Positions 764-28,918 of a stretch of DNA of 29,075 nt are shown here, in pieces. The DNA lies in assembly GCA_001799195.1 (NCBI GenBank), contig MGSU01000276.1, positions 1-29,075 on the forward strand, read 5' to 3'. Both the position numbers and the translations under genes were made by a program. The notes beneath the pieces are model-generated. The model searched no databases. It was not told the origin of the DNA and worked only from the letters and a program-made list of their open reading frames with translations. This DNA is from Deltaproteobacteria bacterium RIFOXYA12_FULL_61_11 (GTDB taxonomy: Bacteria > Bdellovibrionota_F > JAHFAK01 > YA12-FULL-61-11). How positions within the stretch are numbered: the first letter of the stretch is position 1; every line of letters begins with the position of its first letter.

Positions 764-1713
764 AGGCAGCAAGGTTCAGCTGTTTGGCCGACCTGCTCAT
801 GACGATGACGAAAGCTTCGGCTGTCGGTATTCGTTGGGCGTGACGAAGTGAGATTGTGCATCCGGAGACGGATGAGGCCTCTCACTGTGAATCCATAGCT
901 AGTCACACTGACGGGTTTGACATCGAGATGAGACGAGGCCCAAAGGTCGCAGAGGTAAGGTGCTTGGTAACAGGGCACCTATCCGAACGGCGAAATACTC
1001 CGGAGAGCCGCATTGTTCGCAAGAATGATGAAAAGCTCAGGGGAGGATACCGGCAACGGTATACGTCGTGAGGGGAAAAAACCTCAAGGATCGTAACCCC
1101 AGGAAGGGATTGCCACCGAAAGGCTGGCAGCGACTTCGAGGATCAGAAACCCTGGAACCGTAAAAACGGTAAGAGGGGAGAATCTCGTGAAGAACGTGAT
1201 TCGAACTCGAAGGCGTGAAGACCTTGTAGGGGAGAACCCCAGGAGCGTAGTCGGATTGAAAAAGCATCCGACATCCCTCGAAGGGACGTGAAACGCTAGA
1301 AGGTTAACCAAAGCCTAGAAGCGCTACGAGGCGAACTGGTATGCTCGCCGTTGGTTAGCCCTAGAGGGACGAAGACGCTGAAGGGGACCGGGAACCCCAT
1401 GAGGGGTGGATGAGTTTCGAGGTTCGCCTCACCCTCATCCCAGGTTCTGGATGAAGACTCTCAGGAGGGATGAAGTCCAAGACGGCCACCATTGGTTTAC
1501 TAATGGTACGGGTTCGCGAGCGAAGACCGGCGTGTGTATGTACGTACCAGTCCCGGGAACGCCAACCGATGAGGCGTTAGTTCGTGAACAGGAAAAGCCG
1601 TGAAGGGCAGTCAACCTCGAAAGAGGATCTTGTGGATCGGAAAGGATCTGCGGGATAGTTCAGAACAAGGAAACCCTGTAGGGGACCCACAAGCTGGCCT
1701 TGATGCCTTTTTT
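764..1713 (+). ncRNA. Candidate ornate large structured non-coding RNA (~950 nt), family unassigned
   Basis: There is no credible ORF here but a dense series of near-perfect stem-loops. Examples: CATCCG/CGGATG with a GAGA loop (859-874) inside GTGAGA/TCTCAC (848-885); AGGTGC/GCACCT capped by GTAA (958-980); ATACCG/CGGTAT capped by GCAA (1047-1062); TGCCA/TGGCA capped by GAAA (1111-1129); ACCGT/ACGGT (1157-1170); GTCGGAT/ATCCGAC (1250-1272); TCCCT/AGGGA (1274-1286). Also GGTTAACCAA/TTGGTTAGCC (1302-1360, one G-U pair) enclosing GGCGA/TCGCC; GGATGAG/CTCATCC around GAGG-TTCG-CCTC (1408-1440); ACCATT/AATGGT (1488-1507); CCTC-GAAA-GAGG (1615-1626); CTTGTGG/CCACAAG (1629-1693). Ends 764-774 and 1698-1708 pair. 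GNRA and UUCG loops in the plus sense and the U-tract set the strand. Size and style recall OLE, GOLLD and ROOL RNAs, but I recognise no signature of a particular family. No group II intron domain V is visible. Confidence 0.8.
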
Positions 1714-9019: not shown

Positions 9020-9272
9020 AGTCGGGAGTTCCTTTCTGGGTTTCCTTTCTCGATTCTTCTCGGTCTATGAGCAACAGTGGCCCTACTTATTCCCGTCGTA
9101 GACGTTTCTGCGGTTCTTGGCAACTTGTCCCCGTGGTAGAGTGGTGTTGACGAGGGTGGCTCACAGGAGTCTTCCCTTGATCCTCTAACGCTTGCTAGCG
9201 GCTGGCACGCAGGGTACAGTTCACGCACGAAAGTTTCGGAAGAACGCCTTCGGAAGCGAAGAGGGGGTTGGA

Positions 9273-12200
9273 ATGACGAGCCTGCGCGTAGTGGGGTTGG
9301 GGCTCCTCGGAGCGCTGTTGGTGTTGGGTTGCGACAAGGATCAGTCCTTCGTGGCAAAGGAACGCAGCGGCGAGGAGTTGGAGGTAAGGACCGAGGGGGA
9401 AGGGGATGCCAGTGGGGACGTGGAGGTCGGCACGGTTGGGGCGAAGCAGCGCATCGGCATCAGCGTAACCGACGAGGCCGCGCTGCGGGAGGCGTTGGGC
9501 TTGGTGGCCGATTGTCTCTCCGAGGTGCAGGTGGGGCAGACCCTGGAATGCGATCTGAGCACCGCGAGCGGGGACGACGGGGTAACCTTCGCCTTGGCCG
9601 ATGCGCCGGAGGGGATGAGTCTGGATCCGACCAGCGGGAAGTTGACCTGGACCCCGCGGGCCGATCAGGTGGGGCCGGTGCAGTTGTCGATCGTGACCAT
9701 GCGCGGTTCTGCCAACGCGGTGGGGGCGATGGACCTCTCGGTGGTGGCCAACGCGGTGCCGGTGATCGAGGAGCTGACCTGTGAGCTCCTGATCGAGGCC
9801 GGGTTGGTTTGGGAGTGCAGCGTGCGGGCCACGGACGCGGACGGGGGCGAGGTGCGGCTGGGCCTGGCCTTCGAGCCGAGCGGTATGGTGTTGGAAGACG
9901 GCACGTTGCGGTGGACGCCGACGACCGATCAGGCCGGGTACAACCTGTTCCAGGTGACGGCGAGCGACGGGGTCCACACGACGACCCGGCAGGTGAGCGT
10001 CCGGGTGAGCACGCCGGACCGGCCGGTGGTGTTGTTGTTCGACGAGTGCGCGCTGTCGGTGGACGAGGACACGGAGTACCGTTGCGGGTTCCGCCTGGCC
10101 GAGCCGCTGGCCGAGGCGCACCGCTTCGAGTTGCGGGACGGACCGGCGGGTATGGTCCTGGACGCTGAGAAACTCGAGGTGCGCTACACGGTGCCGAACG
10201 TGCTTGAGGTGGTGCGGCGGGAGTACACCATCGCGGTCGTGCGGGACGGCGCCGAATTGCGCGACGGCAACGGCTTCTTCGCCATGCCGGTGAACGATGC
10301 GCCGACCATCAAGCTGGTGGATTGCCCTCGGACCGTGCAAGAGGACGAGACCTTCGCCTGCGGGTACGAGATCGCGGACGAAGATGAAGACCGACTTTTC
10401 GTGTCGCTGAACGAGGGTCCCAGCGGGATGCAGGTGGATACGGTAGAGCGGCGGCTGAGCTGGGTGGCGCCGGAGACGGCCACCGCCTCTCAAGAAAAGA
10501 TTGTGCTCACGGTCAGCGACGGGAAGGCTTCGGCCTCGGCGACGCACGAGGTGCGCGTATTGCCGGTGAACGATGCGCCGCAGCTCGCCTTCCTCGAGTG
10601 CCCGCGGGCCGAGGCCGAGGACGAGGAGTTCGTGTGCCGGTTCGAGGTTTTCGATCTCGACGGCGACGATGTCGAGGTGACGCTGGTGAGCGGACCGAAC
10701 GGTTTGACCCTTGCCGGCGACGAGATACGGTGGCGGGTGCCGCCGGTGCTGGAACGGCACGACGAGCAGTTCGTCCTGGCCGTGGCCGATGGGACGGTGA
10801 CCGTGGAGGTCCCGCGGACCGTGTTGGTCTATCCGGCCAATGATCCTCCGACGTTATTGTTCGGCGATTGTCCGGCCACGGTACTCGAGGATGAGCTCTA
10901 CCGCTGCGAGTTCGACCTGCTCGACGAGGACGGCGACCGGTTGGAGGTGACCTTGGCCTCCGGAGCACCGACCGGGATGCGTGTAGAGGGCAAGGCCGTG
11001 GTCTGGACCGTACCCGAGACCGCTGTGCCCACGGCGGTGAGCTACCAGCTCGAGGTTCGCGACGCCGAGGGCTCCGATCGGTTCGGCCAGAGCGTCTTGG
11101 CCTTGCCGGTGAACGATCCGCCCCGCCTCGTCTTCGGGAGCTGCGCGGCGAGGGCGAACGAGGGGCAGAGTTATGTCTGTCCCTTCACGGTGAGCGACCC
11201 CGAGGGGGATACCCTCGAAGTCAGCGTGGCCGCGGGACCCGAGTTGCTGATCGTGGTCGGCAACGAGGTGCGTTGGATGGTCGGCGAGACCCTCGTCGAG
11301 ACCCCGGTAGCGTACCAACTCAGGGTCTCGGACGGTCGGGCCAGCATGCTGGAAGCCAATAGTCTGATAGCGGTGCCGGTGAACGATCCACCTAGCCTGA
11401 CCATCGGTCCGTGCGGTCCTGCTTTGGTCGGCCAACTCTTCACCTGTCCGCTGGCCGTGGTCGACCCTGACAGCACGGCCTTCACCTTCACCGCTCGCGC
11501 GCCGGCCGGTGCGACGGTCAACCAGCAGACCCGCACCGTGAGCTGGCTGCCTGCCTTCGCGGACCTCGGCCTCGTGACCTTCAGGGTCTCGGTCAGCGAC
11601 GGCACTGCCGAAGACAGCGAGACGGCCTCGGTGACCGTACGCAACCAGGACACCGGCGGCACCTGCGACGAGTGTCAGTACGTCCCGCCTCCAGGGGTCT
11701 TCTCCCCGGTGGTGGAGTGGGAGGCTTCGACCTTCACGGTCGATCCTTCAGCGAAGCACGTCTCGGGCATGCCGGTGGTCGCGAATGTCAATGATGATGA
11801 TGGAGATGGACGGATTACCGTAGAAGGGGATATTCCCGATATCGTCTTCGTGACCTATCCGGAACCGCTCGATTTCACGAATTCCCTCGGGAGATTGCGG
11901 GTCTACAGCGGGGACGGCAGTGGAGAGTTGTTCACCGTTACTAGCCACTATCTCGACTTCGATGTGGCGCCGGCAGTGGGGGACATCGATGGAGATGGGT
12001 TTGTAGAAATCATTGTTGGGGCCGATGGCGGCACCGGTGGGTTGCTCGCCTTCGAACATGACGGCACGTTGAAATGGTCTGCGCCCGGAATAAGCACGGG
12101 TACGGGGGCCGCGGCCATCGCAGACCTCGATCAGGACGGCCAACCGGAGGTCCTCTTCAGGGATAGGGTGTTGCGTAATAACGGGCAGCAATGGTGGCAG

Positions 12201-13409
12201 GCCGGCGGCGGAGACACGACCGACTTGCCTATTGCCTTTGATCACGATCTCGACGGTGACCTCGAGGTGCTCATCGGCCGAGGGCTCTACAACAAGGATG
12301 GGACACTCGTTTGGAGAGCATCATCTCTCCTGAGCGGGGATGTGACCAGTGCAGTCGGGAATTTCGATATCGATCCCAATCCGGAAATTGCCCTGATCCA
12401 CTCCAACAACACCTCGAAAACCGGCTTCCTCAGTCTTCTCGACCATGACGGGACGCTCAAATGGAGTCGTTCCCTCATCCGCGGTTGTACCTGCAACAAC
12501 AATTGCTGGAGAGCGGGTTCTCCCAACGTCGCCGATTTTGACGGTGATGGCGTTGTCGATGTGGCCACTGCCGGGGCGTGTTCGTATTTCGTTTACAAGG
12601 CCGAAGGGACCCTACTCTGGGAAGTGCCGACCGAGGATGACAGCTCGGCCATCACCTCTTCTTCGGTCTTCGACTTCGACGGCGATGGGAATGCCGAGGC
12701 GGTGTATGCCGATGAACACCATCTGCGCATCTATGACGGTGCTAGTGGCACGGTGCTCTACGCTCTACCCAATTCCACCCGAACCCGCAGGGAATATGCG
12801 GTCATCGCCGATGTCGATAACGATGGGAACGCCGAGGTCGTCGTCGCCTCGAACGACCATGTGTGGGGTACGACCCATGGAATCAAGATATTAGGCGACG
12901 AACGCGACAACTGGGTGCCGACGCGGCGGATCTGGAACCAGCACTCCTATCACGTCACCAACGTCCAGGAAAACGGCGCCATCCCGCGGGTGGAGCCTTC
13001 GAACCTCGAACTCTACAACAACTTCCGCCAGAACGTGCAGGGCGAGTTCTCGGAGGACGTCTTCGACGCGCCGGATCTGCGACCGGTCTTGAGCTGGGTC
13101 GATCGCGGCGGTTGCCCGAGCCGGATCGTCTACGAAGTGCTGCTGCTCAACGAGGGCGAGATGCAGCTTGGGGCCGGTGTCCAACTCGGCGTCTACGGGG
13201 TGGACGGAGCCGGGGAACGCTTCTTGGTCTCAGCCCTCTCCGAAGAGGGCATTCCCTCGTGCAGCCAAACCCTGCTCAGGATCGAGTTGGCAAGCAGTGC
13301 ACTTACCGGGCTTCAGGAAATCGTCCTACACGCCGACGACCCCAGCAGGCACAACGAGTGCAACGAGAACAACAACCTGATGCGCTTCGAAGTCTTGCGT
13401 TGCCCCTGA
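9273..13409 (+). CDS. Large surface lipoprotein: eight Ig/cadherin-like repeats, FG-GAP propeller, CARDB-like C-terminus
   Basis: The ATG at 9273 with a preceding GAGGGGG ribosome site gives a lipoprotein signal (MTSLRVVGLGLLGALLVLGC) and 1378 residues. After a Gly/Glu/Asp-rich linker come eight tandem beta-sandwich repeats of about 90 residues (Cys81 to about residue 790). They have closing motifs VNDAP, VNDPP or ANDPP and the putative-Ig/cadherin pattern PEGMSLDPTSGKLTWTP. Each starts with a Cys-x11-Cys pair (x10 in the last). A CDECQYVPPPG linker leads to about seven FG-GAP/VCBS-type blades (VGDIDGDGFVEIIVG, IADLDQDGQPEVLF, VADFDGDGVVDVAT, FDFDGDGNAEAVY, IADVDNDGNAEVVVAS), which bind Ca2+ in known propellers. 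The last ~110 residues resemble a CARDB domain. Such proteins act in surface adhesion or as exported repeat proteins; the ligand is unknown. A radical SAM gene follows 32 bp downstream. Confidence 0.88.
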   Translation: MTSLRVVGLGLLGALLVLGCDKDQSFVAKERSGEELEVRTEGEGDASGDVEVGTVGAKQRIGISVTDEAALREALGLVADCLSEVQVGQTLECDLSTASGDDGVTFALADAPEGMSLDPTSGKLTWTPRADQVGPVQLSIVTMRGSANAVGAMDLSVVANAVPVIEELTCELLIEAGLVWECSVRATDADGGEVRLGLAFEPSGMVLEDGTLRWTPTTDQAGYNLFQVTASDGVHTTTRQVSVRVSTPDRPVVLLFDECALSVDEDTEYRCGFRLAEPLAEAHRFELRDGPAGMVLDAEKLEVRYTVPNVLEVVRREYTIAVVRDGAELRDGNGFFAMPVNDAPTIKLVDCPRTVQEDETFACGYEIADEDEDRLFVSLNEGPSGMQVDTVERRLSWVAPETATASQEKIVLTVSDGKASASATHEVRVLPVNDAPQLAFLECPRAEAEDEEFVCRFEVFDLDGDDVEVTLVSGPNGLTLAGDEIRWRVPPVLERHDEQFVLAVADGTVTVEVPRTVLVYPANDPPTLLFGDCPATVLEDELYRCEFDLLDEDGDRLEVTLASGAPTGMRVEGKAVVWTVPETAVPTAVSYQLEVRDAEGSDRFGQSVLALPVNDPPRLVFGSCAARANEGQSYVCPFTVSDPEGDTLEVSVAAGPELLIVVGNEVRWMVGETLVETPVAYQLRVSDGRASMLEANSLIAVPVNDPPSLTIGPCGPALVGQLFTCPLAVVDPDSTAFTFTARAPAGATVNQQTRTVSWLPAFADLGLVTFRVSVSDGTAEDSETASVTVRNQDTGGTCDECQYVPPPGVFSPVVEWEASTFTVDPSAKHVSGMPVVANVNDDDGDGRITVEGDIPDIVFVTYPEPLDFTNSLGRLRVYSGDGSGELFTVTSHYLDFDVAPAVGDIDGDGFVEIIVGADGGTGGLLAFEHDGTLKWSAPGISTGTGAAAIADLDQDGQPEVLFRDRVLRNNGQQWWQAGGGDTTDLPIAFDHDLDGDLEVLIGRGLYNKDGTLVWRASSLLSGDVTSAVGNFDIDPNPEIALIHSNNTSKTGFLSLLDHDGTLKWSRSLIRGCTCNNNCWRAGSPNVADFDGDGVVDVATAGACSYFVYKAEGTLLWEVPTEDDSSAITSSSVFDFDGDGNAEAVYADEHHLRIYDGASGTVLYALPNSTRTRREYAVIADVDNDGNAEVVVASNDHVWGTTHGIKILGDERDNWVPTRRIWNQHSYHVTNVQENGAIPRVEPSNLELYNNFRQNVQGEFSEDVFDAPDLRPVLSWVDRGGCPSRIVYEVLLLNEGEMQLGAGVQLGVYGVDGAGERFLVSALSEEGIPSCSQTLLRIELASSALTGLQEIVLHADDPSRHNECNENNNLMRFEVLRCP
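9510..11650 (+). repeat. Eight tandem protein repeats with paired cysteines
   Basis: Within the large lipoprotein, eight repeats of about 90 residues each open with a cysteine pair. The pairs are CLSEVQVGQTLEC, CELLIEAGLVWEC, CALSVDEDTEYRC, CPRTVQEDETFAC, CPRAEAEDEEFVC, CPATVLEDELYRC, CAARANEGQSYVC and CGPALVGQLFTC. Seven have exactly 11 residues between the cysteines. The constant spacing suggests a disulfide staple in each domain. The later five repeats are separated by VNDAP/VNDPP/ANDPP junctions. The DNA copies are diverged, so this is an old array rather than a recent expansion. Confidence 0.8.
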
Positions 13410-14916: not shown

Positions 14917-16776
14917 TCACTGGAATTTTGCTGCTTTCTCGATGAGTTTGTCGAGATTCTTCTCGCCGGGGTCCTGGGGGTTCCCCGGATGGATGATGCC
15001 GGCTGAACACTTTTCCGCGGCCTTGACGATATCTTTGAAGGGCCCCCCCTTGGGATTCTTCACGAAGGCCTTCTTATCGGCGTTGTAACCGAAGATGCTC
15101 TTGTTGATGTTCACGCACTCGTCGCACGAAGTACAGAGCGGGGTATCGATCCAGGCGCTGCCACCGGCAGGAGTGGCGGGTTTCGCCGGTGCGGTTGGGG
15201 TTGCCGAGGGTTCGATTCTTGGTGTGGCAGCTGACGGAGCGGCAGTGCGTAAGGCTGCCGGATCCACGGTCAGGTCGAAACCGGCCGGATCGAGGCCCGT
15301 CAAGCGCAGAGCGAGGTTCTTCATAGCCGAGGCCACGGCGAAATCCTCTCGTTGACGGAGCTGGTTCTCCATGACCATTTTTGCCTCGTCAATCGAACGC
15401 CGCTTCTCATCCTCGAATTTGGCCGCGGTCTCAGAACGTGCACGCAATACATGGGGATTCTCGACCCCTGCGAGTTCTTGTAGCGCCCTCCACAGATGCA
15501 AGCGGTCGATCGTTTGCGCGATCAACGCCTTGGAAGGTACCATTTTTACCAGACGACGGTTCCCGTCGAGGTACAGGATGTAAGGGGTTCTCCCCTCGCG
15601 CTGTTGGTGGGACTTGAGCAAGTACTCATCGAGAGGCATGATCGAGGCTTCGTCGAGGTGCTGTGCCAAGGGAGTGAAGTGGTCGCCGAGAATGCCTTCG
15701 CTTGCGATGAAATCGGCGAAGGTCATGGTGTGAGGGGCTTTCTGCTCTTTCCCGCTCTCATCGACATAGACGAGTTCCGAGGTAGCGAAGTGGCGGTCGG
15801 TCTCGGGGTTGCCGGTGACATCGAGACAGTCGACGAAGTCGAGGGATTGATCCGGGTCGAAGATGAAGTGCGGGAAAGCTCGGGAACGCAACGCATCGAT
15901 GGCGCGTTGTTCCAGGGGGCGGTTACTGCGGGAGTAATCCGAGAGCAAGGAGAAGATCGAGGGCCGCAGGGTCACCAGACCTCGCAGGAGACCGTGGTGG
16001 AGGTGCTCCGGCAGGGCCAGGGAACTCTGGAGCACAAAAACATGGCGGAGCGACATGGAGAGAAAACCGATATCGGCCACGAGTTTGGTCGCGGCGGCTC
16101 TGCCGATCTCGCCCGGATCGCCGGAGACCTTCCCTTGCAGAACGAGTAGTTTGATCGGCCTTCCGGTCGAGACCAATTGGAGGAGTTGGCCGAAGAAATG
16201 GCCGGTCAGTTCTTCGGGCTCTGCCAACACCACGTAGGGTGGACAGAGGGCCATCTCGGTATTGTTCAGATTACGCCAGTCGAAAGTCGAATAAAAAGCA
16301 TCGTGCTTGCGTGGGTCGTACTTGCCGCGCAACTCGAGAGCGACCTTGCGCAGGACGGAGAACACCCGTACCACGGGGGCGATCTTACGATCGTAAGCGG
16401 TGACCACTTCGTCGGCCTTCTCGCCCTGGAGCGTGACCATTTCATACCCGGGTACAAGGGTGTCGAGGGCTCCGAGCAGGGTGTGCAGCTCGGCTTGCAG
16501 CGCTTTCATCCTGGCAAGACGCGCCGCCGGACTGGTTCCGTGATCGTCGGCCTTCCTGAACAGGGTGGCCAAGGCCGTGGTATCGATGGTTCCACCGCCG
16601 AAATCGCCCATCGACCGTTGCAACTGCTGGGCATTCGAACGTCCCTGGCGGTAGTGGTCCTCGACCGTGAGCATATCGTCGAGGGCCTTGGTTTGTTCCG
16701 TGATCATCTGGATCAAGGACTTCTTCCTGCCCTGCCAGAAGGTCTCGATGATCGCGGTGACCTTGTCTTTCATCAT
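14917..16776 (-). CDS. Degenerate TPP-domain paralogue with C-terminal 3+1 Cys ferredoxin module
   Basis: This 619-residue protein has no canonical enzyme signature. It aligns colinearly with the C-terminal ~600 residues of the giant PFOR-like protein of the same operon. Shared blocks are FYSTFDWRNLNNTEMALCPP versus FFEHFTWRDLTSAELQLCPP, GRPIKLLVLQ versus DRPIKILVLD, and AIDALRSRAFPHF versus VEQAVRSRSFPLF. The GDG/GGD thiamine-pyrophosphate motif, the CPGCGE motif and the GCPSAWG motif are absent, so it should not bind TPP. The N-terminus is helical. After an Ala/Pro-rich linker (about 500-530) the C-terminus has CTSCDECVNIN, FGYN and KAAEKCSAGIIHPG, a single-cluster [4Fe-4S] ferredoxin pattern. 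It is the last gene of the operon, 15 bp after korB, with AGGAGG before its ATG. I infer an electron-transfer subunit for KorAB or Rnf, standing in for the usual small ferredoxin subunit. Confidence 0.72.
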   Translation of the reverse strand: MMKDKVTAIIETFWQGRKKSLIQMITEQTKALDDMLTVEDHYRQGRSNAQQLQRSMGDFGGGTIDTTALATLFRKADDHGTSPAARLARMKALQAELHTLLGALDTLVPGYEMVTLQGEKADEVVTAYDRKIAPVVRVFSVLRKVALELRGKYDPRKHDAFYSTFDWRNLNNTEMALCPPYVVLAEPEELTGHFFGQLLQLVSTGRPIKLLVLQGKVSGDPGEIGRAAATKLVADIGFLSMSLRHVFVLQSSLALPEHLHHGLLRGLVTLRPSIFSLLSDYSRSNRPLEQRAIDALRSRAFPHFIFDPDQSLDFVDCLDVTGNPETDRHFATSELVYVDESGKEQKAPHTMTFADFIASEGILGDHFTPLAQHLDEASIMPLDEYLLKSHQQREGRTPYILYLDGNRRLVKMVPSKALIAQTIDRLHLWRALQELAGVENPHVLRARSETAAKFEDEKRRSIDEAKMVMENQLRQREDFAVASAMKNLALRLTGLDPAGFDLTVDPAALRTAAPSAATPRIEPSATPTAPAKPATPAGGSAWIDTPLCTSCDECVNINKSIFGYNADKKAFVKNPKGGPFKDIVKAAEKCSAGIIHPGNPQDPGEKNLDKLIEKAAKFQ

Positions 16777-16791
16777 TGGCGACCTCCTCGC

Positions 16792-17751
16792 TCAGATGGT
16801 GTATTTGTCGAGGAGCTTTTCCAACCGCTTGAGATAGGTCGGGCGGTCGATCTTGTCGGCGCGCTGGCGGCGGATCTCATCATAGGTCGGTACGCTCGGG
16901 TCATGATAGATCAACCCGATCGGCGCGGGTTTGTCGGACAGAGCTACCCGTTGGGCCGCGTGGATGTCGCGATGGTCGTGAACCACGGTCTCCCCCATTC
17001 TGGAGAAGGCTGGATCGATCGCGATACCTTCGGGATTCTGTAGGAAGTACAAAGGGTAATCTTTACCACCCTTGCCGTAGAGGGAACCGGTGTAGGCCGG
17101 ACAGTATTGCAGGATGCGCACGAAGCCGGTGCCCTTGTGGTGCCAAGCGCGATAGATCGTCTGCTCCATGTGCGAGGGCAGCCAAGTCGCGGTCTGGGCC
17201 AGGAAGCTGATGTTGGTGATGCCCATCATCACGCTCAAGGGATTGAGGGCCTTGAGGTACGAACCCCGCGGGGTGGTATTCGACTTGGTGCCCTCGGGGG
17301 AGGTCGGCGAGGCCTGGTTCTTGGTCAGAGCGTAGATCTCGTTGTCGAAGACGCAGACGGTGAGGTTGGTGTTGTAGCGCATGGCATGCAACCAGTGCCC
17401 CCCGCCGATGCTGAAACAGTCCCCGTCGCCGGACATGACCAGTACGTGCAGATCTGGCCGCTGCAACGCGATGCCAGTGGCGATCGGCAGGGCTCGGCCG
17501 TGGATACTGTGGAAACCGAAGGTGCGCAGGTAATGGGGGAAGCGGCTGCTGCAACCGATGCCGGAGACGCAGACGATCTTCTCGGGATCGGTTTGGTCGT
17601 CGCGAAGGATGCGCTGTACGGTCGACAGGATGGACATGTCGCCGCAGCCCTTGCACCAACGCGGTACGCTGGACGATTCGTAGTCGGACAATCCGTAGGT
17701 GTTGTGTAAACCCTCGCACTCGATGTACTCTTCGAATTCCTCTGCCTTCAT
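16792..17751 (-). CDS. korB: 2-oxoacid:ferredoxin oxidoreductase beta subunit (TPP-binding)
   Basis: This 319-residue protein starts at the ATG at 17751, which has a strong AGGAGG site; the frame continues upstream only as intergenic sequence. It carries the complete beta-subunit pattern: WCKGCGDMSILS, SGIGCSSRFPHYL, the TPP/Mg site GDGDCFSIGGGHWLHAMRYN, and FDNEIYALTKNQASPTSP. With KorA it would decarboxylate a 2-oxoacid (2-oxoglutarate, pyruvate or branched-chain oxoacids) to the acyl-CoA, passing two electrons to ferredoxin. Length matches KorB-type subunits (about 280-340). It lies 62 bp after korA, and the gap contains a GC-rich hairpin. The exact substrate cannot be read from sequence. 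Confidence 0.93.
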   Translation of the reverse strand: MKAEEFEEYIECEGLHNTYGLSDYESSSVPRWCKGCGDMSILSTVQRILRDDQTDPEKIVCVSGIGCSSRFPHYLRTFGFHSIHGRALPIATGIALQRPDLHVLVMSGDGDCFSIGGGHWLHAMRYNTNLTVCVFDNEIYALTKNQASPTSPEGTKSNTTPRGSYLKALNPLSVMMGITNISFLAQTATWLPSHMEQTIYRAWHHKGTGFVRILQYCPAYTGSLYGKGGKDYPLYFLQNPEGIAIDPAFSRMGETVVHDHRDIHAAQRVALSDKPAPIGLIYHDPSVPTYDEIRRQRADKIDRPTYLKRLEKLLDKYTI

Positions 17752-17765
17752 TGCTCCTCCTGCTC

Positions 17766-17785
17766 GGAGCCGTTTCCGCGGCTCC
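17766..17785 (-). promoter_or_regulatory. GC-rich hairpin between korA and korB
   Basis: In the message strand GGAGCCG and CGGCTCC flank a six-base loop (eight base pairs when the outer C-G pair at 17765/17786 is included). The hairpin sits 14 bp before the korB start, close to its ribosome site. No U-tract follows, so it is not an ordinary terminator. It could stabilise processed mRNA or set the korA:korB ratio. Confidence 0.5.
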
Positions 17786-17813
17786 GTATGGTTGCTATTC
17801 CAATTCTCCGAGA

Positions 17814-19679
17814 TCAACCGCGGCTGAGTTTCCCGACCTCGAGGCTGATGACTTCGTGCAGCTCGCGAGGCATGAACGGTCTGCCGAGCACGCGGGACCA
17901 ACAGTCGATGTCCATCAAGGTGTGCGCCCTAAGGACATAGGCGAGTTGCGCGTAACGCCGGGTCGTCTCGTCGACAAGGGGATCCCCCCAATCATCGCTG
18001 TAGTTGAGTTCGATGGTCATGACCTTCTTGAAACGCGAGAAAATCCCTTTCAATCCGGGCGGTAAGGGGTTGAGGAAGGTCAGGTGGAGATAGGACACCG
18101 AATGTCCCTCGGCCCTGACTCGGTCTATGGCCTCGACGATGGAGCCTTTGGTGCTGCCCCAACCGACGATGAGCAGGTCGCCGCTCTGATCGCCGTATAC
18201 CGTCGGGACTTTCAGGGTCTTCTGGAAGGCTGCTAACTTGCGGCTGCGCATGCGATGGCCGCGCTGGTTCGAGGGAGCGTCATACCCGACCTTGCCGGCA
18301 TCGGTGTGGTTGAGGGTGGTGGTGACGCTCATGCCGCCGGGTTGGCCGGGAATGATCCGGCGCGACAGACCGGTCTGCTCGTCCCAGTCGAACGGTTTTG
18401 TGCCCGGGGGTACCGGAGAGAGGTCGAGCGGAGGCGGCAAGGTGTCGGGTGTGACCGTTGGGCGCGGGAAGAGCTGTACCCCGGTGGCGAGGTTGGCGTC
18501 GGTGAGCACGATCACCACCATCCGGAATTCCTCGGCGATCTGCCTTGCGGTCGCCATGATGTAATAGCATTCCTCGATCGAGGAAGCGGCGAGGATGATC
18601 TTGGGGGCATCGCCGGGAGCGCCGAAGAGGCAATGGAGGAGGTCCGACTGTTCGATCTTGGTGGGCAGACCGGTGCTGGGACCGCCACGCTGGACGTCGA
18701 CGATAACCAAGGGGATCTCGGTCATAACGGCAAGACCTTGGAATTCCGTTTTGAGGGCCATGCCCGGGCCAGAGGTGATGGTCAGGGCGCGACGGCCTGC
18801 ATAGGAGGCACCGACGGCGACCCCGATGGCCGCGATCTCGTCCTCTGCTTGGTGGATGAAGCCGCCGAAGTCCTCAAAGTGGTCGGCCAGGGTAAACGAG
18901 GCCGAGGTGGCCGGAGTGATCGGATACATGGAACACAGCTCGAAGCCGGCGGCGATCGAACCGAAGGCCACGGCCTGGTTGCCGTTCATCGAGATCATCG
19001 GTTTGTCGTGCTTCTTGGCCGGGATCTGGAAGCGGAAGTCGAGGTGTTCGTCGGCATACTTGTACCCCAACTCGAGCAGGGCGAGGTTGGCGTCGATGAC
19101 CTTCTGGGCCTTCTTGGCGAAGGTGGCCATAATCGTCTTGCGCGCCTCTTCGTAGTCCAGGGAGTAGAGGTAGGTCAGGTAGCCCAGTTCGAGCATGTTC
19201 TTGCCGCGTCGGGGATCATCGAGGATCTGGAGCGCCAGTTCCTCGACTGGCACCTCGATGAGGGTGCCGCCGTTCTTCTTGAAGTCTTCGGTGATGCGGG
19301 CGTAGGATGCGCGATATTCCGGATTCTCGTGGTTCTTCCACATGTTGTCGATGATGACGGTGGCGTCCTTGGCCACGACGTTGACCTCGATACGCGACAG
19401 GAGCGACATCTCGTTGAAGGCGAAGACGAGGTTCGCATAGTCACCGACATTGGTGACGATGGGATTCTCGGAGACGCGCAGCCGGATGCCGCTGGTGCTG
19501 CCCGTGGTGTGCGGTGGGGGTTGTATCTCGGCCGGGATGATCTCCACCGTCCACAGGCCGTTGCCGTTGAGTGCGAACAAGCGGGCCAGCGAGACGCCGG
19601 CCTTCTGCGCGCCCTCGCCGGAGTCGCAGACGATCTCGATGATGTGTTCTCTGACGATCTTCGTTTCTTTCTGCGTCAT
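17814..19679 (-). CDS. korA: 2-oxoacid:ferredoxin oxidoreductase, fused gamma-alpha subunit
   Basis: This 621-residue protein has the KorA architecture with the gamma domain first (residues about 10-195) and the pyrimidine-binding alpha domain after it. The gamma part begins EIVCDSGEGAQKAGVSLARLF. The alpha part has GNQAVAFGSIAAGFELC, MYPITPATSAS, QAEDEIAAIGVAVGASYAG, TSGPGMALKTEF and QRGGPSTGLPTKIEQSDL, all typical and intact. It binds CoA and the TPP pyrimidine ring at the interface with KorB. Length is normal for the fused form. It follows rnfA by 62 bp on the same strand with GAGGAAGG as ribosome site, so the 2-oxoacid dehydrogenase is transcriptionally joined to the Rnf complex that can consume its reduced ferredoxin. 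Confidence 0.94.
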   Translation of the reverse strand: MTQKETKIVREHIIEIVCDSGEGAQKAGVSLARLFALNGNGLWTVEIIPAEIQPPPHTTGSTSGIRLRVSENPIVTNVGDYANLVFAFNEMSLLSRIEVNVVAKDATVIIDNMWKNHENPEYRASYARITEDFKKNGGTLIEVPVEELALQILDDPRRGKNMLELGYLTYLYSLDYEEARKTIMATFAKKAQKVIDANLALLELGYKYADEHLDFRFQIPAKKHDKPMISMNGNQAVAFGSIAAGFELCSMYPITPATSASFTLADHFEDFGGFIHQAEDEIAAIGVAVGASYAGRRALTITSGPGMALKTEFQGLAVMTEIPLVIVDVQRGGPSTGLPTKIEQSDLLHCLFGAPGDAPKIILAASSIEECYYIMATARQIAEEFRMVVIVLTDANLATGVQLFPRPTVTPDTLPPPLDLSPVPPGTKPFDWDEQTGLSRRIIPGQPGGMSVTTTLNHTDAGKVGYDAPSNQRGHRMRSRKLAAFQKTLKVPTVYGDQSGDLLIVGWGSTKGSIVEAIDRVRAEGHSVSYLHLTFLNPLPPGLKGIFSRFKKVMTIELNYSDDWGDPLVDETTRRYAQLAYVLRAHTLMDIDCWSRVLGRPFMPRELHEVISLEVGKLSRG

Positions 19680-19741
19680 GGTCGACCTTCCTCTTTGTTA
19701 CTCCGAAAAGTTCTTCGTGCCTTCGTTGTCGTACTCGGTAT

Positions 19742-20338
19742 TCAACCCCCGCCGCCCAGACCCGCAAAACCCATGAAGCCCAGCGACAGGATGCCCGCTA
19801 TAATCAGGGTCAAGGCCGCGCCTTTGATCATCGGGGGAACCTTGGACAATTCCAGTTCCTCCCGGATACCGGACATAATGACCAGAGCCAGGGTGAAACC
19901 GAGGCCACCGCCGATTGCAAAGACAATCGATTGTAATATATTGTATTGACGGTTTGTTTGAAAAAGGGCTACCGCCAGGATGGCGCAGTTGGTGGTGATG
20001 AGGGGCAGGAAAATGCCCAAGGCCCGAAAGAGGGCCGGGCTATATTTCTTCATAAACATTTCAACAAGTTGAACAGTTGAAGCGATAACTACGATGTAGC
20101 AGATCAGTTGCAGGAATTGCACGTCGAGCCAGGTCAGGAGCAGATTGATGCCATAGGCGCAGGTCGAGGAGATGATCATCACGAAGGTGACCGCAATGCC
20201 CATGCGCGAGGCTGTTTCCCATTTACCCGAAACACCCAGGAAGGGGCAGATACCGAGGAAATAGCTGAATATGAAATTGTTGATGATACAGGCATTGATG
20301 AAGATGAAGCCCGGGGATTCCATGTTCATATGGGTCAC
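19742..20338 (-). CDS. rnfA: Rnf electron transport complex subunit A
   Basis: This 198-residue protein has six membrane spans. The first carries INACIINNFIFSYFLGICPFLGV, with the cysteine conserved in RnfA/NqrE that helps bind the intramembrane iron-sulfur centre. LPLITTNCAILAVALFQ in the second half holds the matching cysteine, and GGGLGFTLALVIMSGIREEL is the family C-terminal block. RnfA and RnfE form inverted halves of the membrane core through which electrons cross. The ATG at 20338 overlaps the rnfE stop by 4 nt, so the two are translationally coupled; internal ATGs at codons 4 and 6 are alternative starts. It is the last rnf gene before korA. Confidence 0.95.
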   Translation of the reverse strand: MTHMNMESPGFIFINACIINNFIFSYFLGICPFLGVSGKWETASRMGIAVTFVMIISSTCAYGINLLLTWLDVQFLQLICYIVVIASTVQLVEMFMKKYSPALFRALGIFLPLITTNCAILAVALFQTNRQYNILQSIVFAIGGGLGFTLALVIMSGIREELELSKVPPMIKGAALTLIIAGILSLGFMGFAGLGGGG

Positions 20339-20982
20339 GCTCCCAGTTTGGCTTTCGCCCGTTGCCGGGTGTTCACGATGTTCGCGCCCAGCATCAGGGT
20401 ACCGAAGATGAAGAAGCCACCGCAGGGGAGGATCATGATCACCCAGGGTTCGAAGCTCGGACCAAAGAGGTCGATCCCCGCGAAGGAACCATTGCCGAGA
20501 ATTTCACGGATGGTCCCCATGCAGACGATGGCCAGGGTGAAACCGATACCGGAACCAATGGCATCAAGGATCGATTTCGCAATCGTGTTCTTCGAGGCGA
20601 AGGCTTCCGCCCGACCGAGGATGATGCAATTGACCACGATCAAGGCGAGGAAGGCGCCCAGGGCCTTGTGGATTTCCAGGCTGATCGCCTGGATGAGGTA
20701 GTCGGCCACGGTGACGAACGTTGCGATGATCACGATGAAGGTGCCGATGCGGACCTCTTTCGGGATGAAACGGCGCAGCATCGAGATCAATGCACTGGAG
20801 CAGATGAGCACGAAGGTCGTTGCTAAGCCCATCGAGACGGCGTTGATCACCGAGTTGGAGACGGCCAGGGTCGGGCAGCAGCCTAGTAAACTGACAAGGA
20901 CCGGGTTCTCCTTCCAGAGTCCGCGGACGAGACAGTCGAAGTTCTCGTGCTTGGCTGAAGCGGAGTAGATCGGTTCGTTCAT
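20335..20982 (-). CDS. rnfE: Rnf electron transport complex subunit E
   Basis: This 215-residue membrane protein has the RnfE/NqrD pattern: a short cytoplasmic start, then GLWKENPVLVSLLGCCPTLAV with the conserved cysteine pair, FIPKEVRIGTFIVIIATFVT, ALIVVNCIILGRAEAFASKN, and GSGIGFTLAIVCMGTIREILGNG. Six spans are expected. With RnfA it forms the inverted-repeat core that carries the buried iron-sulfur centre. It overlaps rnfG upstream (4 nt) and rnfA downstream (4 nt). Length is normal and no key residue is missing. Confidence 0.95.
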   Translation of the reverse strand: MNEPIYSASAKHENFDCLVRGLWKENPVLVSLLGCCPTLAVSNSVINAVSMGLATTFVLICSSALISMLRRFIPKEVRIGTFIVIIATFVTVADYLIQAISLEIHKALGAFLALIVVNCIILGRAEAFASKNTIAKSILDAIGSGIGFTLAIVCMGTIREILGNGSFAGIDLFGPSFEPWVIMILPCGGFFIFGTLMLGANIVNTRQRAKAKLGA

Positions 20983-21650
20983 CGTCCGCCTCCTTGCAAC
21001 GTATCCATATTCTTGACGATGATCGGGAGTTTCTCCTGGGCGCTCTGGTTGAGCAGTTTTCCGACCGCTTTGGAGGAGATGGTTGCGCCGGTGATCGCAT
21101 CGATCTGCCAGGGGTTCTGTTTCTCCCCATGCTTGACCACTTCGATGGGGTTTGCCAGATGGGTGTGCGAAGAATCAAGTTTGACATCAAGGGCTTTGAA
21201 GTTTTCCGCAAAGTTAGCATCGGTGTAAATTTTATCCCCAAGCCCCGGGGTCTCCTTGCTCTCCAGGACCTTCATCGCGATCACGGCCTGCTTGCTCGGG
21301 TCATAACCGTAGAGTACGCGGATGACGTCGGCGAAACCCTGACCAGAGGCTTCTACGGCGATGCCTTTCAACGCATGGTCTTGATCGTAGCCGATGAAGA
21401 GTTTGACCGCTTTCTCGTCCTCGCCTTGGAGGAGAATCAGCCGGTCGTCCTCGAGTTTGAAGGTCTGGAAGGAGGAAATCCCGGGCAGAACCTCGAAGAC
21501 CGATTTTTTGAGCATTTCCGCTTTGTTGAGCTTGATAGTGGGGGTCGTCGCTTGGACGGCTACGACGATCAACAGACCGGACAGGGCGGAGATCCCGGCC
21601 AGGGTCCTAATCATCACCAGACTCGATGTTCCTTTCTCACGTTCTTCCAT
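20979..21650 (-). CDS. rnfG: Rnf electron transport complex subunit G (covalent FMN)
   Basis: This 223-residue protein has one N-terminal membrane helix (about 12-33) and a soluble domain facing the periplasm. The motif DAITGATISSKAV near residue 190 contains the S/T-GAT site where ApbE attaches FMN to the threonine. ESKETPGLGDKI is the other family hallmark. In Rnf, RnfG relays electrons on the outer face of the membrane between RnfD and the RnfA/E core. It begins 7 nt after the rnfD stop and overlaps rnfE. No apbE gene is visible in the window, so flavin attachment must rely on one elsewhere. Confidence 0.94.
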   Translation of the reverse strand: MEEREKGTSSLVMIRTLAGISALSGLLIVVAVQATTPTIKLNKAEMLKKSVFEVLPGISSFQTFKLEDDRLILLQGEDEKAVKLFIGYDQDHALKGIAVEASGQGFADVIRVLYGYDPSKQAVIAMKVLESKETPGLGDKIYTDANFAENFKALDVKLDSSHTHLANPIEVVKHGEKQNPWQIDAITGATISSKAVGKLLNQSAQEKLPIIVKNMDTLQGGGR

Positions 21651-21657
21651 GCCTGAC

Positions 21658-22686
21658 CTACTTCCAACTCAAGAGCTTGCGATTGGTGCCGTAGACCTTG
21701 GTACCGGTCATCCGGCTGATCAAGGGGGTGAAGGCGTTGCCCAGGAGTATCGCGTACATGACTCCCTCGGGCAGACCGCCGAGTAAACGGATCACCACTA
21801 CCAGGAGACCGATGAGGCCTCCGTAGATCCATACTCCCAGCGGTGTCAACGGTGAGGTGACCATGTCCGTGGCCATGAAGACCGCGCCAAGCATCAACCC
21901 CCCGGAGAACAACATGAAGAGTGGATCTGGATAACGATCGGGAGCTGCGAGCCAGAATATTCCGCTGAACAGGGCCACCGAGAGCATGATGGCCAGCGGA
22001 ATGCGCCAGTCCAGCAGGTGCCGCCAGGCAAGATAGAGGCCACCGAGCAGGATCAGCACGGCACTGGTTTCTCCCGTTGAGCCGCTCGTCAGGCCGAAGA
22101 AAAGGTCACCTACGATGGTCGTCTGGTGGCTGAATTTCATCGCGGCTAGAGGAGTGGCTCCACTGACAGCGTCGACCATGGGTCTGAGAAAGGGGGCTGC
22201 CAGAGTCGAAGAAGCGCAATACTGGAAGCGGTCCGGTGCGAAGGCTTCGGACCAGGTGGTGATCGCAACCGGGAAGGAAGCTTGTAAGAAAGCCCGTCCC
22301 ACCAGGGCAGGATTGAAGATGTTGCAGCCCAGCCCACCGAAGATCATTTTTCCGACGAGGATCGAGACAATACTGCCGATCACCCCCATCCAGAGCGGGA
22401 AAGCAGGAGGCAGGGTCAGTCCGAGCAGCAGGCCGGTGAGTGCTGCAGACCAGTCGCCAATGGTTGGTTCCTGCCGTCCGAGCCGGGTGTAGATCCACTC
22501 GGTGAGGACGCAGGTGAGGGTTGTTGTGATCAGCAAGAGTGCGGCGCTCTGACCGAAGGTATAGATGGCCATTGCCGTTACCGGCAACAAGGCATAGATC
22601 ACCTGTCTCATGACCGTCTCGACCGAGAGACCGCGACTGAGATGGGGAGAGGTGCGCAGGACAATGGACAAATAGTTGGACTTCAC
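21658..22686 (-). CDS. rnfD: Rnf electron transport complex subunit D (covalent FMN)
   Basis: I start this 342-residue protein at the GTG at 22686. It overlaps the rnfC stop by 4 nt (GTGA) and has AGGAG nine bases upstream. The frame remains open further upstream only inside rnfC. The protein has the RnfD/NqrB membrane fold. VRTSPHLS-like sequence (VLRTSPHLSRG) opens the gene, followed by AALTGLLLGLTLPPAFP, GGLGCNIFNPALVGRAFL, and DAVSGATPLAAMK, where SGAT is the covalent FMN site. DMVTSPLTPLGVWIYG lies near the end. RnfD passes electrons across the membrane and takes part in ion translocation. All expected features are intact. Confidence 0.95.
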   Translation of the reverse strand: MKSNYLSIVLRTSPHLSRGLSVETVMRQVIYALLPVTAMAIYTFGQSAALLLITTTLTCVLTEWIYTRLGRQEPTIGDWSAALTGLLLGLTLPPAFPLWMGVIGSIVSILVGKMIFGGLGCNIFNPALVGRAFLQASFPVAITTWSEAFAPDRFQYCASSTLAAPFLRPMVDAVSGATPLAAMKFSHQTTIVGDLFFGLTSGSTGETSAVLILLGGLYLAWRHLLDWRIPLAIMLSVALFSGIFWLAAPDRYPDPLFMLFSGGLMLGAVFMATDMVTSPLTPLGVWIYGGLIGLLVVVIRLLGGLPEGVMYAILLGNAFTPLISRMTGTKVYGTNRKLLSWK

Positions 22687-24029
22687 CGCTTGGTGCTCCT
22701 TTCCCTGAGGATGCCCTTGGACAGGCGGAACAACTGGACCAGGGGAATGTTGGACGGACAGACGTAGGCGCAACTACCGCACTCGAAGCAGTCCATGAGG
22801 TTGTAAGACGAGGCCATCTCCTCGAAGCGGCTGTTGCGCGCAAGGAGCCCCAGGCGCGAGGGATTGAGATGGATCGGACAGGCTGTGACGCATTCCCCGC
22901 AGCGAATACAGGGGTAGGTTTTGCGCGGTGGGGAAATTTCGTCCTCGGCCAGGACCACGATCCCGGAAACCCCTTTGGTCACCGGGGTGTCGAGGAACGC
23001 CACGGATTTTCCCATCATGGGGCCGCCGAAGAGGACCTGCCTGGCCGAACCGTTGAAACCGACCTGCTCGAGCAGAAAGTCCAACGGGGTTCCCAGTGGT
23101 ACCAGATAGTTGCCAGGTCGGTCGATGCCGTGGCCCGTGACCGTGACGACCCGTTCGATCAAGCCCTGGCCTCGAGGCAGCAAGGTGCCCACCTCGCCCA
23201 CGGTGGCCACGTTCGAGACCACCACCCCGATGTCCGCGGGCAACCCGCCGGAGGGAATGTCCATATGGAGGAGAGCCCGGGTGAGCATTTTCTCCGCACC
23301 CTGGGGATACTTGGTCTTGACCGCCGCGACCGTGATCGCCGAGCCGGGGGGGACTAACCGGGAGAATTCGGCCAAGGCATCGGGCTTATTGTCCTCGATG
23401 GCAAGGACCGCCCGTTTTGCTCCCAGGGCTTTTTGCACCAACGAGGTGCCGAGCAGAATGGCTTCGCCCTGTTCCAGCATGACCCGGTGATCGCTGGTCA
23501 GGTATGGTTCGCACTCGCAGCCGTTAATGATCAGGTCGTTGACAGTCTTGCCCTTTGGTGGGGAGAGCTTGACGTGGGTAGGAAATGCCGCTCCGCCAAG
23601 TCCCACCATGCCCATGGCCTGGATGCCCGCGACTATCTCCTGACCCGAGAGGTTCTCAAGGGTTCGTGGTTCTCCGGCCAAGACCTCTTGTGTCGCGCCG
23701 GGATAGGGCCGAAGGGTGATCGAGGGCACCATCCTGCCGTCGCAATCCAATGAGCGTCCGACTTCAGTGACCACCCCGGTGACCGGGGCGTGCATGGGCA
23801 CGGAGACGAAACCATCGGCCCTGGCGATCAGTTCGCCGCGGATCACCTCTTGGCCCTTCCGTACTACTGGAAGGGCAGGTTTCCCAAGGTGTTGGGCCAT
23901 TAGCACGATATAGTGGGGAGCGAAGGGCAATCGGCGTACCGGCCTGGCTGAGGTCAGCTCTTTGTGCTCCTCCGGGTGGATACCGTGCGAGAAGGTCTTG
24001 CTCGCCGAGAGGTGTGCCAATTCAGGCAT
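22683..24029 (-). CDS. rnfC: Rnf electron transport complex subunit C (NADH-binding, two [4Fe-4S])
   Basis: This 448-residue protein starts at the ATG at 24029 (MPELAHLSASKTFSHGIHP), eight nt inside the end of the giant upstream gene, with GAGG as ribosome site. The frame extends upstream only as overlap. It shows the RnfC/NqrF-independent NuoF-like NADH/FMN domain: MGMVGLGGAAFPTHVKL and INGCECEPYLTSDHRVMLE, and later LFGGPMMGKSV. Two ferredoxin cysteine groups follow: CIRCGECVTACP and CFECGSCAYVCP. RnfC exchanges electrons with NAD(H) on the cytoplasmic face. Gene order CDGEA after a possible rnfB matches the RnfBCDGEA type found in Bacteroidetes and some Deltaproteobacteria. Confidence 0.95.
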   Translation of the reverse strand: MPELAHLSASKTFSHGIHPEEHKELTSARPVRRLPFAPHYIVLMAQHLGKPALPVVRKGQEVIRGELIARADGFVSVPMHAPVTGVVTEVGRSLDCDGRMVPSITLRPYPGATQEVLAGEPRTLENLSGQEIVAGIQAMGMVGLGGAAFPTHVKLSPPKGKTVNDLIINGCECEPYLTSDHRVMLEQGEAILLGTSLVQKALGAKRAVLAIEDNKPDALAEFSRLVPPGSAITVAAVKTKYPQGAEKMLTRALLHMDIPSGGLPADIGVVVSNVATVGEVGTLLPRGQGLIERVVTVTGHGIDRPGNYLVPLGTPLDFLLEQVGFNGSARQVLFGGPMMGKSVAFLDTPVTKGVSGIVVLAEDEISPPRKTYPCIRCGECVTACPIHLNPSRLGLLARNSRFEEMASSYNLMDCFECGSCAYVCPSNIPLVQLFRLSKGILRERSTKR

Positions 24030-27000
24030 TGAATTTCCTCGCTCTCTCGATCCATTTGTCAATGCCCTGTTCCTGGAGCTCGGCCGGTAACCCCGGATGG
24101 ATAATACCCAGCGGACAGAGTTCGGCGGCTTTGACCAGATCCCGGTAAGGCGCCCGGTTGGTGAGGAAAATGGCCTGGCGGTTGGAGTCGTAACCGAAGA
24201 CCGAGGGGTTGAGATTGATACAGCGGTCACAGGGCTCGCAGCGGGCGGTCTCGATCGAAGGAGCGATCCCCTCGGTCTTGGCTTCGCCGAGGTCGGGAGT
24301 CGTCTCTACTCCAGCAGGAGCTTCCGGGGAGCTCAGCGAACCGTCCTTCTTTTCTTCCACGGCCGGCAGGGTCAAGAGGGGGGCGGGGAGGGTGCTGCGG
24401 TACCCCCCGGAGAGTTCGACCAGCTTGGCGGTCAGGGAGTCGAGGAGCGCTGTTCTGGCCGCGGCGACTCGACCGTCGACATCGACGGTTTCGATCTCCT
24501 GACCGTTGAGAGCGCGCAACAGCGCCCAGAGCTCGCGGCGATCGCGGCACAGGCCGACCAAGGTCGGGGTGGCGCGGCGGGTGAGCAGCGTCCCGCGGGG
24601 GTCGACGACCTGGACCACCGGGACAGCCTCGAGCTGTTCCTCATCGGTGAGTTCGAGATAGTCGAGGAGCTCGGTCCTGACCGAGTCGGGAAGGTCCGAG
24701 GGCAAGGCCGCGAACAGCTCGGGATGCCTGTCCTCGCCGGCCAGGAACGTTGCCGGGGTCGCGGTGCAAGCCAATTCGGCGTGGTTCCCCTCGGGGGTCA
24801 GGTAGGTAAGGGTATCGGTAGACCAGGGTTGGCATGGGTCCGGGTTGCCGTCCAGGCGGAAGCGTTCGACCAGAGTGCCCTCGCGGGCAGGGCTATAGCT
24901 GAACAAGGGGAAGGAACGGGAACGGACGGCCTGCTCGACCCTCGCGGGACCGGCATGTTCGGCGATACCATGACGCAGCACACAACTGCTGTAGACATTG
25001 AAGAGAGCAGGTCCCGCGTGGTCGAGCCCTTCGCGGAAGCCGGCGATGAGTTGGTCGAGCGCCGCGACGCTGCCGTTCTGCACGAAACAGTGACGATGAG
25101 CGAAACCGAGCAGGGCGATTTCTTTCCTTCCTCTGCGGCCGAAGGAGGTGTCTGGTGCGCCTGCACCGGCCTCGGAGCTTCCCTGTGTGTCCAATACCAA
25201 GATCTTGATGGGCCTGTCGCTGGCAAGGATGGCGCTGAGGCCTTGCAGGGCGCTCCCTCCGAGTGCGGTATCGCCGCCGACCAGCACCAGAGGAGGGCAG
25301 AGCTGGAGTTCGGCGGACGTCAGGTCGCGCCAGGTGAAGTGTTCGAAGAAGGACGAGTGCTGGCGGGTGACATACGTGCCCGCAAGTTCCAATTCGGCAA
25401 GGCGGAGCCATTTGAAACCCTCGGTCATAGCCGAGAGATGGGCCTCGAAGATCCCGGCCGCTACGGCAGGGCCGTCGGTGTAGCCGAGCGCGGTCCAGGG
25501 GAAGGGGAAGGGATTGTATGGCCAGGAAGCTCCCCAGGCGCTGGGGCAACCGCGATCGCTGATCATCCCGAGGTTCGCTCGAGGAGCCTGCCCCTGCTGG
25601 CCGCGATAGGCCGTGCTCAGGCGTTTGAGGCCCCCGAGGATCGAGGTCACTCGGTCGAGCCATTCAGGGTCGATGGGGCGCTGGTCACGCTGCAACCTGG
25701 TGGCCAACTCGACCAAGGTGAGGTCCTGGCCGCCGAGTTCGCGCAAGGTCTGTTCAATCATTTCGGTCGCGTCGATGTCCACGGCGAGCTTGAGCTTGAC
25801 GTGGGTTTCGAGCTTGTCGATCACTTCTTCGACCTTTTCCAGGTGAGCGGCCACCCGTTCGCGCATCGAAGCGGTCACCGTGGCGGTGAAGAGGTGCAAG
25901 ACGGTCTTCTCGCCGCATCCAGGGCAGGCTCCGTCGCCGCCGCTCATCGCCGCATAGGTCTCTTTATCAAGGAGGAAGGGCGCGGTGGGGCCACCGGCGC
26001 GTTCGCTACGGTAGGTGACAGGAGTGGTCGGCAGGTCCAGCCACAACTCCCACGTGGAACGCAGTTCTTCGAGGCGGCCGGGAGTTTGTTCCGAGGCGGT
26101 CAGCGCTTTCTCGGGACAAACGGCCACGCAGGTCAGACAACCCTTGCAGGCATAGGGGTTGAGATTGAGCGTGAGCAGTCCTCCGGAACCCTCGGGTGCG
26201 GCGAAGAAGGGTTTGGCAGCGGAGAAACGCAGCGATCGGAGTTGCGTCGAGAAGACCTCGAGTTCGGAGCGCAGTTCCGAAACGCCTGATTCGCCGAGGT
26301 TTGAGGTTTGGGGCAAGGCTTCGAGCGCGGCGGTCAAGGCGGTGTTGACCTCTGTACCTTCGGCGAGGTTCTGCCGCCAGGTAGTGTCGAGAGAGCGAAT
26401 CGCCTTGCGCAGGTGTTTGAACGTCGCCCCGCGGCGCTCGAGCCGTTCGAGCACCGCTTCGCAGAAAGCCGAGGGAGTATTGACGAGGCCGGGCAGGGCG
26501 GAATCCGGGCACAAGGTCCAACACTTGCCGCAGCCCGTGCAACGTTCAGGGTGCCAATGGGGAAGTACGGTCCGAATCGGTGCGTGGTCCTGGAAAATAC
26601 CGGTGTGGGCCGGGACCGTGCCGGTGGCCAAGAACGGGTCGGCCAGGACGTGTCCGAAGTCGCCTTTGCGGTAAAACCTGCCGGTGCGGTCCCAAAAATG
26701 GTGGAGGTCCATGGCGGGGCAGGGATGCTCGGGCAAGGCCTTGAGAGTGGCGGGGAGGCGCTCGTCAGAGAGGTTGGGGGAGGTTCCGATCGAGGTCGGT
26801 TCCGCAACGGGTCTGACCTGTTCGAAACCGAAGCGCAACCAGTTCAAGGCCGAGGCAGGCGAGGGATGTTCTTCGAGGTAGGCGCGAACCAATTTGAAGA
26901 AGGCTTTTGGTTCGAGTTTGAGGGATGCGAGGACCTGCGAGTTGGACCACAGGGCTCCGAGCAGCGCCCAGTCGCGGGCAGCGGATCGCTCACCGGGCTG

Positions 27001-28833: not shown

Positions 28834-28918
28834 GCTCATCCTCATGCTTGGTCCGCGGGCAGCCGCGAAGGGGTTGCTGGACAACCCGTTCCGGAAAGCC
28901 CGCGTGGATCGTCCTCGT

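Follow-up and report, generated by a model that had tools for sequence, protein, structure and literature searches.

Bacterial RNA classes as large and complex as the one considered here number only a handful. OLE RNA is about 600 nt long and occurs in Gram-positive extremophiles and anaerobes (PMC9723947), with the oapA gene beside it (PMC10898510). GOLLD RNA, whose function is unknown, is often over 800 nt in length, and both GOLLD and ROOL are RNAs of phages and prophages that often lie near tRNA islands (PMC12286853). The recently solved OLE, ROOL and GOLLD RNAs turned out to be RNA-only assemblies. OLE forms long co-axial pipes, and the assemblies of all three use A-minor contacts and kissing loops (PMC12286853). 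The smtA motif, or 'Soda Lake RNA', is a lineage-restricted GC-IGR candidate of more than 350 nt, known in Thioalkalivibrio only (PMC11109978).

The region that we describe spans positions 764-1713 on the plus strand of a 29,075-nt window, the whole stretch of DNA analyzed here. The window opens its contig, which belongs to a 4.64-Mb genome in 342 contigs that is 87% complete. The region lies inside a 1.26-kb intergenic region between two genes on the minus strand, a TlpA/AhpC-TSA-type (thioredoxin-fold) lipoprotein gene on the 5' side (start codon at 515), which is divergent from it, and an acyltransferase gene (PF01553; 1778-2395) on the 3' side, which is convergent with it. Given this arrangement, an RNA transcribed from the region is left as its own transcription unit. 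Farther downstream come genes of the PLD, symporter and HlyIII types, then a gene for a surface protein, a pyruvate:ferredoxin-type oxidoreductase set and Rnf genes. The neighbors are cellular, no phage genes were seen among the annotated proteins of the window, where the sequence upstream of the region amounts to 763 bases only, and the whole window contains no tRNA.

Two of the downstream loci merit a brief description. The surface-type protein (9192-13409) has 1405 amino acids, and in it FG-GAP repeats come after a series of Ig/cadherin-like domains. The pyruvate:ferredoxin-oxidoreductase-like subunits and Rnf genes form a cluster on the minus strand (14917-28884), in which the POR-type protein (17814-19679) has 53-58% identity to proteins from other phyla (six genomes) and only 38% identity to its counterpart in the single relative from its own phylum. 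The contig may thus have been binned in error, although paralogy or transfer of this protein would produce the same pattern.

Fold stability, hairpins and loops

The plus strand of 764-1713 has a predicted minimum free energy (MFE) of about -376 kcal/mol. Compared with dinucleotide-preserving shuffles, its z-score was -9.4 with 20 shuffles, -7.2 with 15 shuffles and -6.8 with 100 shuffles, none of which was equally stable. Twenty other 950-nt segments along the contig, taken on both strands, had z-scores of -2.6 to +1.6, so the contig overall is not unusual. With z at about -7 to -9 in the region and -2.6 to +1.6 elsewhere, the proposal in the first-pass annotation that nearly a kilobase without a protein gene contains densely packed matched stems is confirmed. 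The minus strand also beats its shuffles, less strongly (z of -5 to -6), because it is the complement of a paired RNA. Unpaired adenines were not in excess over shuffles, so this common sign of structured RNA contributes nothing here. Outside the region, folding slightly above chance was observed at 561-720 on the plus strand (z -2.4), between the TlpA-like gene and the RNA, and the GC-rich segment 2481-2640, between the acyltransferase and PLD-type genes, folds strongly on both strands, with z-scores of -1.7 and -2.0 that are statistically weak.

More than fifteen near-perfect stem-loops had been proposed in the region, and we found 21 perfect Watson-Crick hairpins when stems of 5 bp or more were counted, against 8.9 +/- 3.5 in shuffles, only one of 300 of which reached 21. 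Loops of three kinds are in excess as well: the plus-strand MFE structure has five GNRA tetraloops (shuffle mean 0.8), two UUCG tetraloops (shuffle mean 0.01) and, among its internal loops, five all-purine 3x3 loops (shuffle mean 1.2), and for each kind 0 of 100 shuffles reached the count. The fold of the minus strand has no GNRA, UUCG or all-purine 3x3 loops at all. Loops of these kinds thus distinguish the two strands.

The GNRA loops in the predicted fold are GAGA at 865, GUAA at 967, GCAA at 1019, GCAA at 1053 and GAAA at 1118, and the UUCG loops are at 816 and 1423. Five GNRA loops had been proposed earlier, and that number is correct, although their identities differ in part, with a second GCAA (1053) in the MFE structure and the additional GAAA hairpin (1615-1626) in competition with an alternative pairing. 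3x3 purine loops, AAG/GAA and GGA/AAG among them, recur as the joints between helices. Eight copies each of the pentamers CGUGA and GAUGA are present (1.5 and 1.7 expected), and 11 copies of YGAAG (4.4 expected). Many of these copies lie in internal loops or where a helix ends, and they may represent a recurrent module.

Predicted architecture and transcription signals

The predicted fold is closed by a long helix, P1, that joins the extreme 5' and 3' ends by pairing 764-783 with 1689-1708. Its 18 bp are interrupted by small bulges and have a mean pair probability of 0.86. Inside P1 the prediction begins with a 5' domain (796-932) that has a UUCG hairpin (809-826) and a GAGA hairpin (859-874), and continues with a row of hairpins (947-1094), three of them GNRA-capped (GUAA 958-980, GCAA 1011-1030 and GCAA 1047-1062) and a fourth at 1063-1094. 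The central domain (1097-1232) has pair probabilities of up to 1.0 and contains a GAAA hairpin (1112-1128), a long helix (1130-1140 with 1206-1216) and the 3x3 purine loop GGA/AAG. It is followed by a domain with two near-equal folds (1237-1386) and a UUCG-capped hairpin (1409-1439). The 3' domain (1444-1666) is rod-like, its helices being joined via purine-rich internal loops.

The long-range 10-bp helix that had been singled out earlier, 1302-1311 with 1351-1360, exists and includes one G-U pair, but it is one of the two near-equal local folds of 1237-1386, with a pair probability of about 0.3 and a cost of 1.1 kcal/mol when it is forced. Chance alone would give a sequence of this kind about 0.5 perfect 10-bp complements, so long-range complementarity by itself is not significant. 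Two candidate pseudoknots, 1328-1336 with 1422-1430 and 1415-1424 with 1613-1622, have complementarity at chance level and were dropped as evidence.

Upstream of P1, a candidate promoter on the plus strand (728-756) can be read from the sequence as TTGACC (728-733), a 17-nt spacer and TAGAGA (751-756), with five of six consensus positions in the -35 element, three of six in the -10 element and an A/T-rich tract before them (about 669-727). A consensus promoter scan reported no promoter at this site. From the -35 element and from where P1 starts, we infer that transcription begins at about 764. The probable end of transcription is at T6 and T7 tracts (1708-1725, with T6 at 1708-1713), where P1 would serve as the terminator stem. 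There is no strong local hairpin before T6 (1684-1713 folds at -3.3 kcal/mol), and the P1 duplex, worth about -24 kcal/mol, runs directly into it. A terminator at this site would need a long-range stem, for which the 5' end of the RNA itself is predicted to supply one strand. The suggestion that the RNA has its own promoter and terminator is plausible as far as the good -35 element and the junction of P1 with T6 are concerned, and is weakened by the poor -10 element and the lack of a local terminator stem.

The sequence of events that we favor would be that the RNA, started at about 764, folds into hairpin domains capped by GNRA and UUCG loops and into rods of helices with purine 3x3 loops, the individual pairs being predicted, and that its two ends then pair as P1, closing the molecule and, with T6, forming the putative terminator. 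An improbable alternative is that the region encodes a tandem set of smaller RNAs, or else a long antisense or 3' regulatory RNA that acts on the convergent acyltransferase mRNA. The sub-domains do fold on their own into the same structure that they have within the whole RNA, which would suit separate units, and readthrough past T6 would be antisense to the acyltransferase gene. However, P1 encloses every domain and is the sole strong stem adjoining T6, the scan found no internal terminator on the plus strand within the RNA, and ordinary antisense RNAs do not need such a fold.

Coding potential, known families and homologs

The open reading frames in 764-1713 (those of at least 60 amino acids were listed) are all of 80 amino acids or fewer and overlap each other on both strands. 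None has a Pfam match above the curated cut-off, and the one that was compared with plasmid records had no match there. On these grounds we rejected a protein-coding reading of the region.

Rfam 15 gave no match at gathering score in the whole window, and at E<=5 the single match in the RNA region, to v-snoRNA-1, scored 17.9 bits where the cut-off is 75 and was put down to chance. A recognizable OLE, GOLLD, ROOL, HEARO, RNase P, tmRNA or group I or II intron is excluded by this result, and neither Rfam nor ARAGORN detected a conserved core of a tmRNA, an intron or RNase P. The first reading of the DNA had noted no family-specific signature and had left room for a strongly diverged member of a known family; the covariance search agrees with the former and offers no signal, even at E<=5, for descent from OLE, GOLLD or ROOL. 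It also bears on the distinctly improbable idea that this is a catalytic or mobile RNA, such as a strongly diverged or ORF-less intron, another ribozyme or a remnant of one. The size, the GNRA loops and the end-to-end closure would fit a large ribozyme, but the models of group I and II introns, RNase P and other ribozymes were unmatched even at E<=5, blastn finds a single copy in the genome, and the position is intergenic, with no host gene interrupted.

Searches for homologs recovered nothing beyond the source. With blastn, phages and plasmids gave no match at 1e-5, and the matches at E<=5 in Vibrio and Klebsiella phages are 26-44 nt long and were attributed to chance. The same program found no homolog in 386 genomes; two 24-33-nt matches in relatives (E of 0.004-0.008) were also judged to be chance, neither having an Rfam match. 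Patterns made from the loop sequences found nothing in GTDB genomes. On viral contigs they gave five single matches, discarded for want of extended similarity, and two further patterns had no match there. At 75 loci in GTDB with relatives of the acyltransferase gene, all from other lineages by their titles, blastn and nhmmer detected no homolog of the RNA. We also built two single-sequence covariance models, R1 from the central domain (1097-1232) and R2 from part of the 3' domain (1444-1666), whose reach is limited to about 0.59 bits per position. R1 found nothing at 44 of the acyltransferase loci, and R1 in 192 genomes and R2 in 39 reached a significant E for the source window only; the sole weak extra match of R2 (18.7 bits, E 0.07) was taken as noise. 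Nor did a homolog turn up in the phyla of three more genomes in which a window protein has close relatives. The genome sets in these searches overlap, and records of the source genome or a very near one may be left out of them.

In the collection searched, the phylum of the source genome is represented by a single further genome. With a phylum so thinly sampled (two genomes), the absence of homologs says little about conservation within the genus or family.

It is very improbable that the region is no RNA gene at all and instead a structured DNA element or decaying insertion with inverted repeats that fold on both strands, since the excess of GNRA, UUCG and purine loops is confined to the plus strand, neither a terminal inverted repeat nor another copy was found and P1 ends at a U tract, even though the fold of the minus strand, too, is more stable than that of its shuffles and the region is known from one genome only. 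Taken together, the gap in z-scores between the region and the rest of the contig, the loop excess on the plus strand only, the excess of hairpins, the position of P1 at T6, the lack of a coding signal and the lone transcription unit argue for a stand-alone structured non-coding RNA. Counted against this explanation are that no homolog, and hence no covariation, was found, that there is no clean sigma-70 promoter or local terminator, and that the pseudoknot-like complements are at chance level. We regard it as very probable that 764-1713 is a structured non-coding RNA, with a start at about 764 and a domain fold of predicted pairs. The narrower proposal, that it is a stand-alone gene for a trans-acting structured RNA of about 950 nt, found so far in one genome of a poorly sampled lineage, we consider evenly balanced.

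Comparison with large ornate RNAs

The region is long, non-coding, folded far beyond chance and dense in tetraloops, which places it with the large ornate non-coding RNAs as a functional kind and not as a homology family. Its fold, its loops and the lack of a coding ORF support the original description of a large plus-strand RNA with the general character of that group. It is probably an orphan class of large structured RNA that resembles the known large ornate families and is not a detectable member of them.

By analogy with OLE, GOLLD and ROOL, the GNRA and purine-rich loops might dock helices by tertiary contacts, within one copy or between copies, and the outcome could be a compact scaffold, alone or with proteins. 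Such a scaffold, or self-assembly into a homo-oligomer, is a tentative and somewhat doubtful role for the RNA. More specific, and unlikely as a whole, is the idea of a new large ornate class, unrelated by descent to OLE, GOLLD and ROOL and located on a chromosome away from any phage, whose GNRA and purine-loop contacts build a defined particle, made of RNA only or of RNA and protein, and whose own 5' end doubles as the terminator stem.

Finding such an orphan in a phylum with so few genomes suggests that RNAs of this sort outnumber what family-based annotation reports, since discovery pipelines depend on homologs. The RNA is also a concrete molecule that is open to transcription, probing and imaging.

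None of the three large families has an Rfam match here, and the likenesses are of other kinds. GOLLD has a similar length, many stems and no coding function, and differs in context, which here is chromosomal and housekeeping with no tRNA in the window. ROOL is likewise a large, ornate, stand-alone RNA, whereas no phage or tRNA context is present at this locus. The smtA motif is a large structured intergenic RNA restricted to one lineage; it has homologs and covariation, none of which were found here, and the RNA described here is far longer than 350 nt. As for OLE, its RNA is about 600 nt and its hosts are Gram-positive, in contrast to the roughly 950 nt here, and where OLE has oapA, the two genes that flank this RNA (only the flanks being compared) are the TlpA-like and acyltransferase genes. 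OLE and this RNA are nevertheless both large, ornate and chromosomal, and the RNA here also has predicted rods of helices with purine loops.
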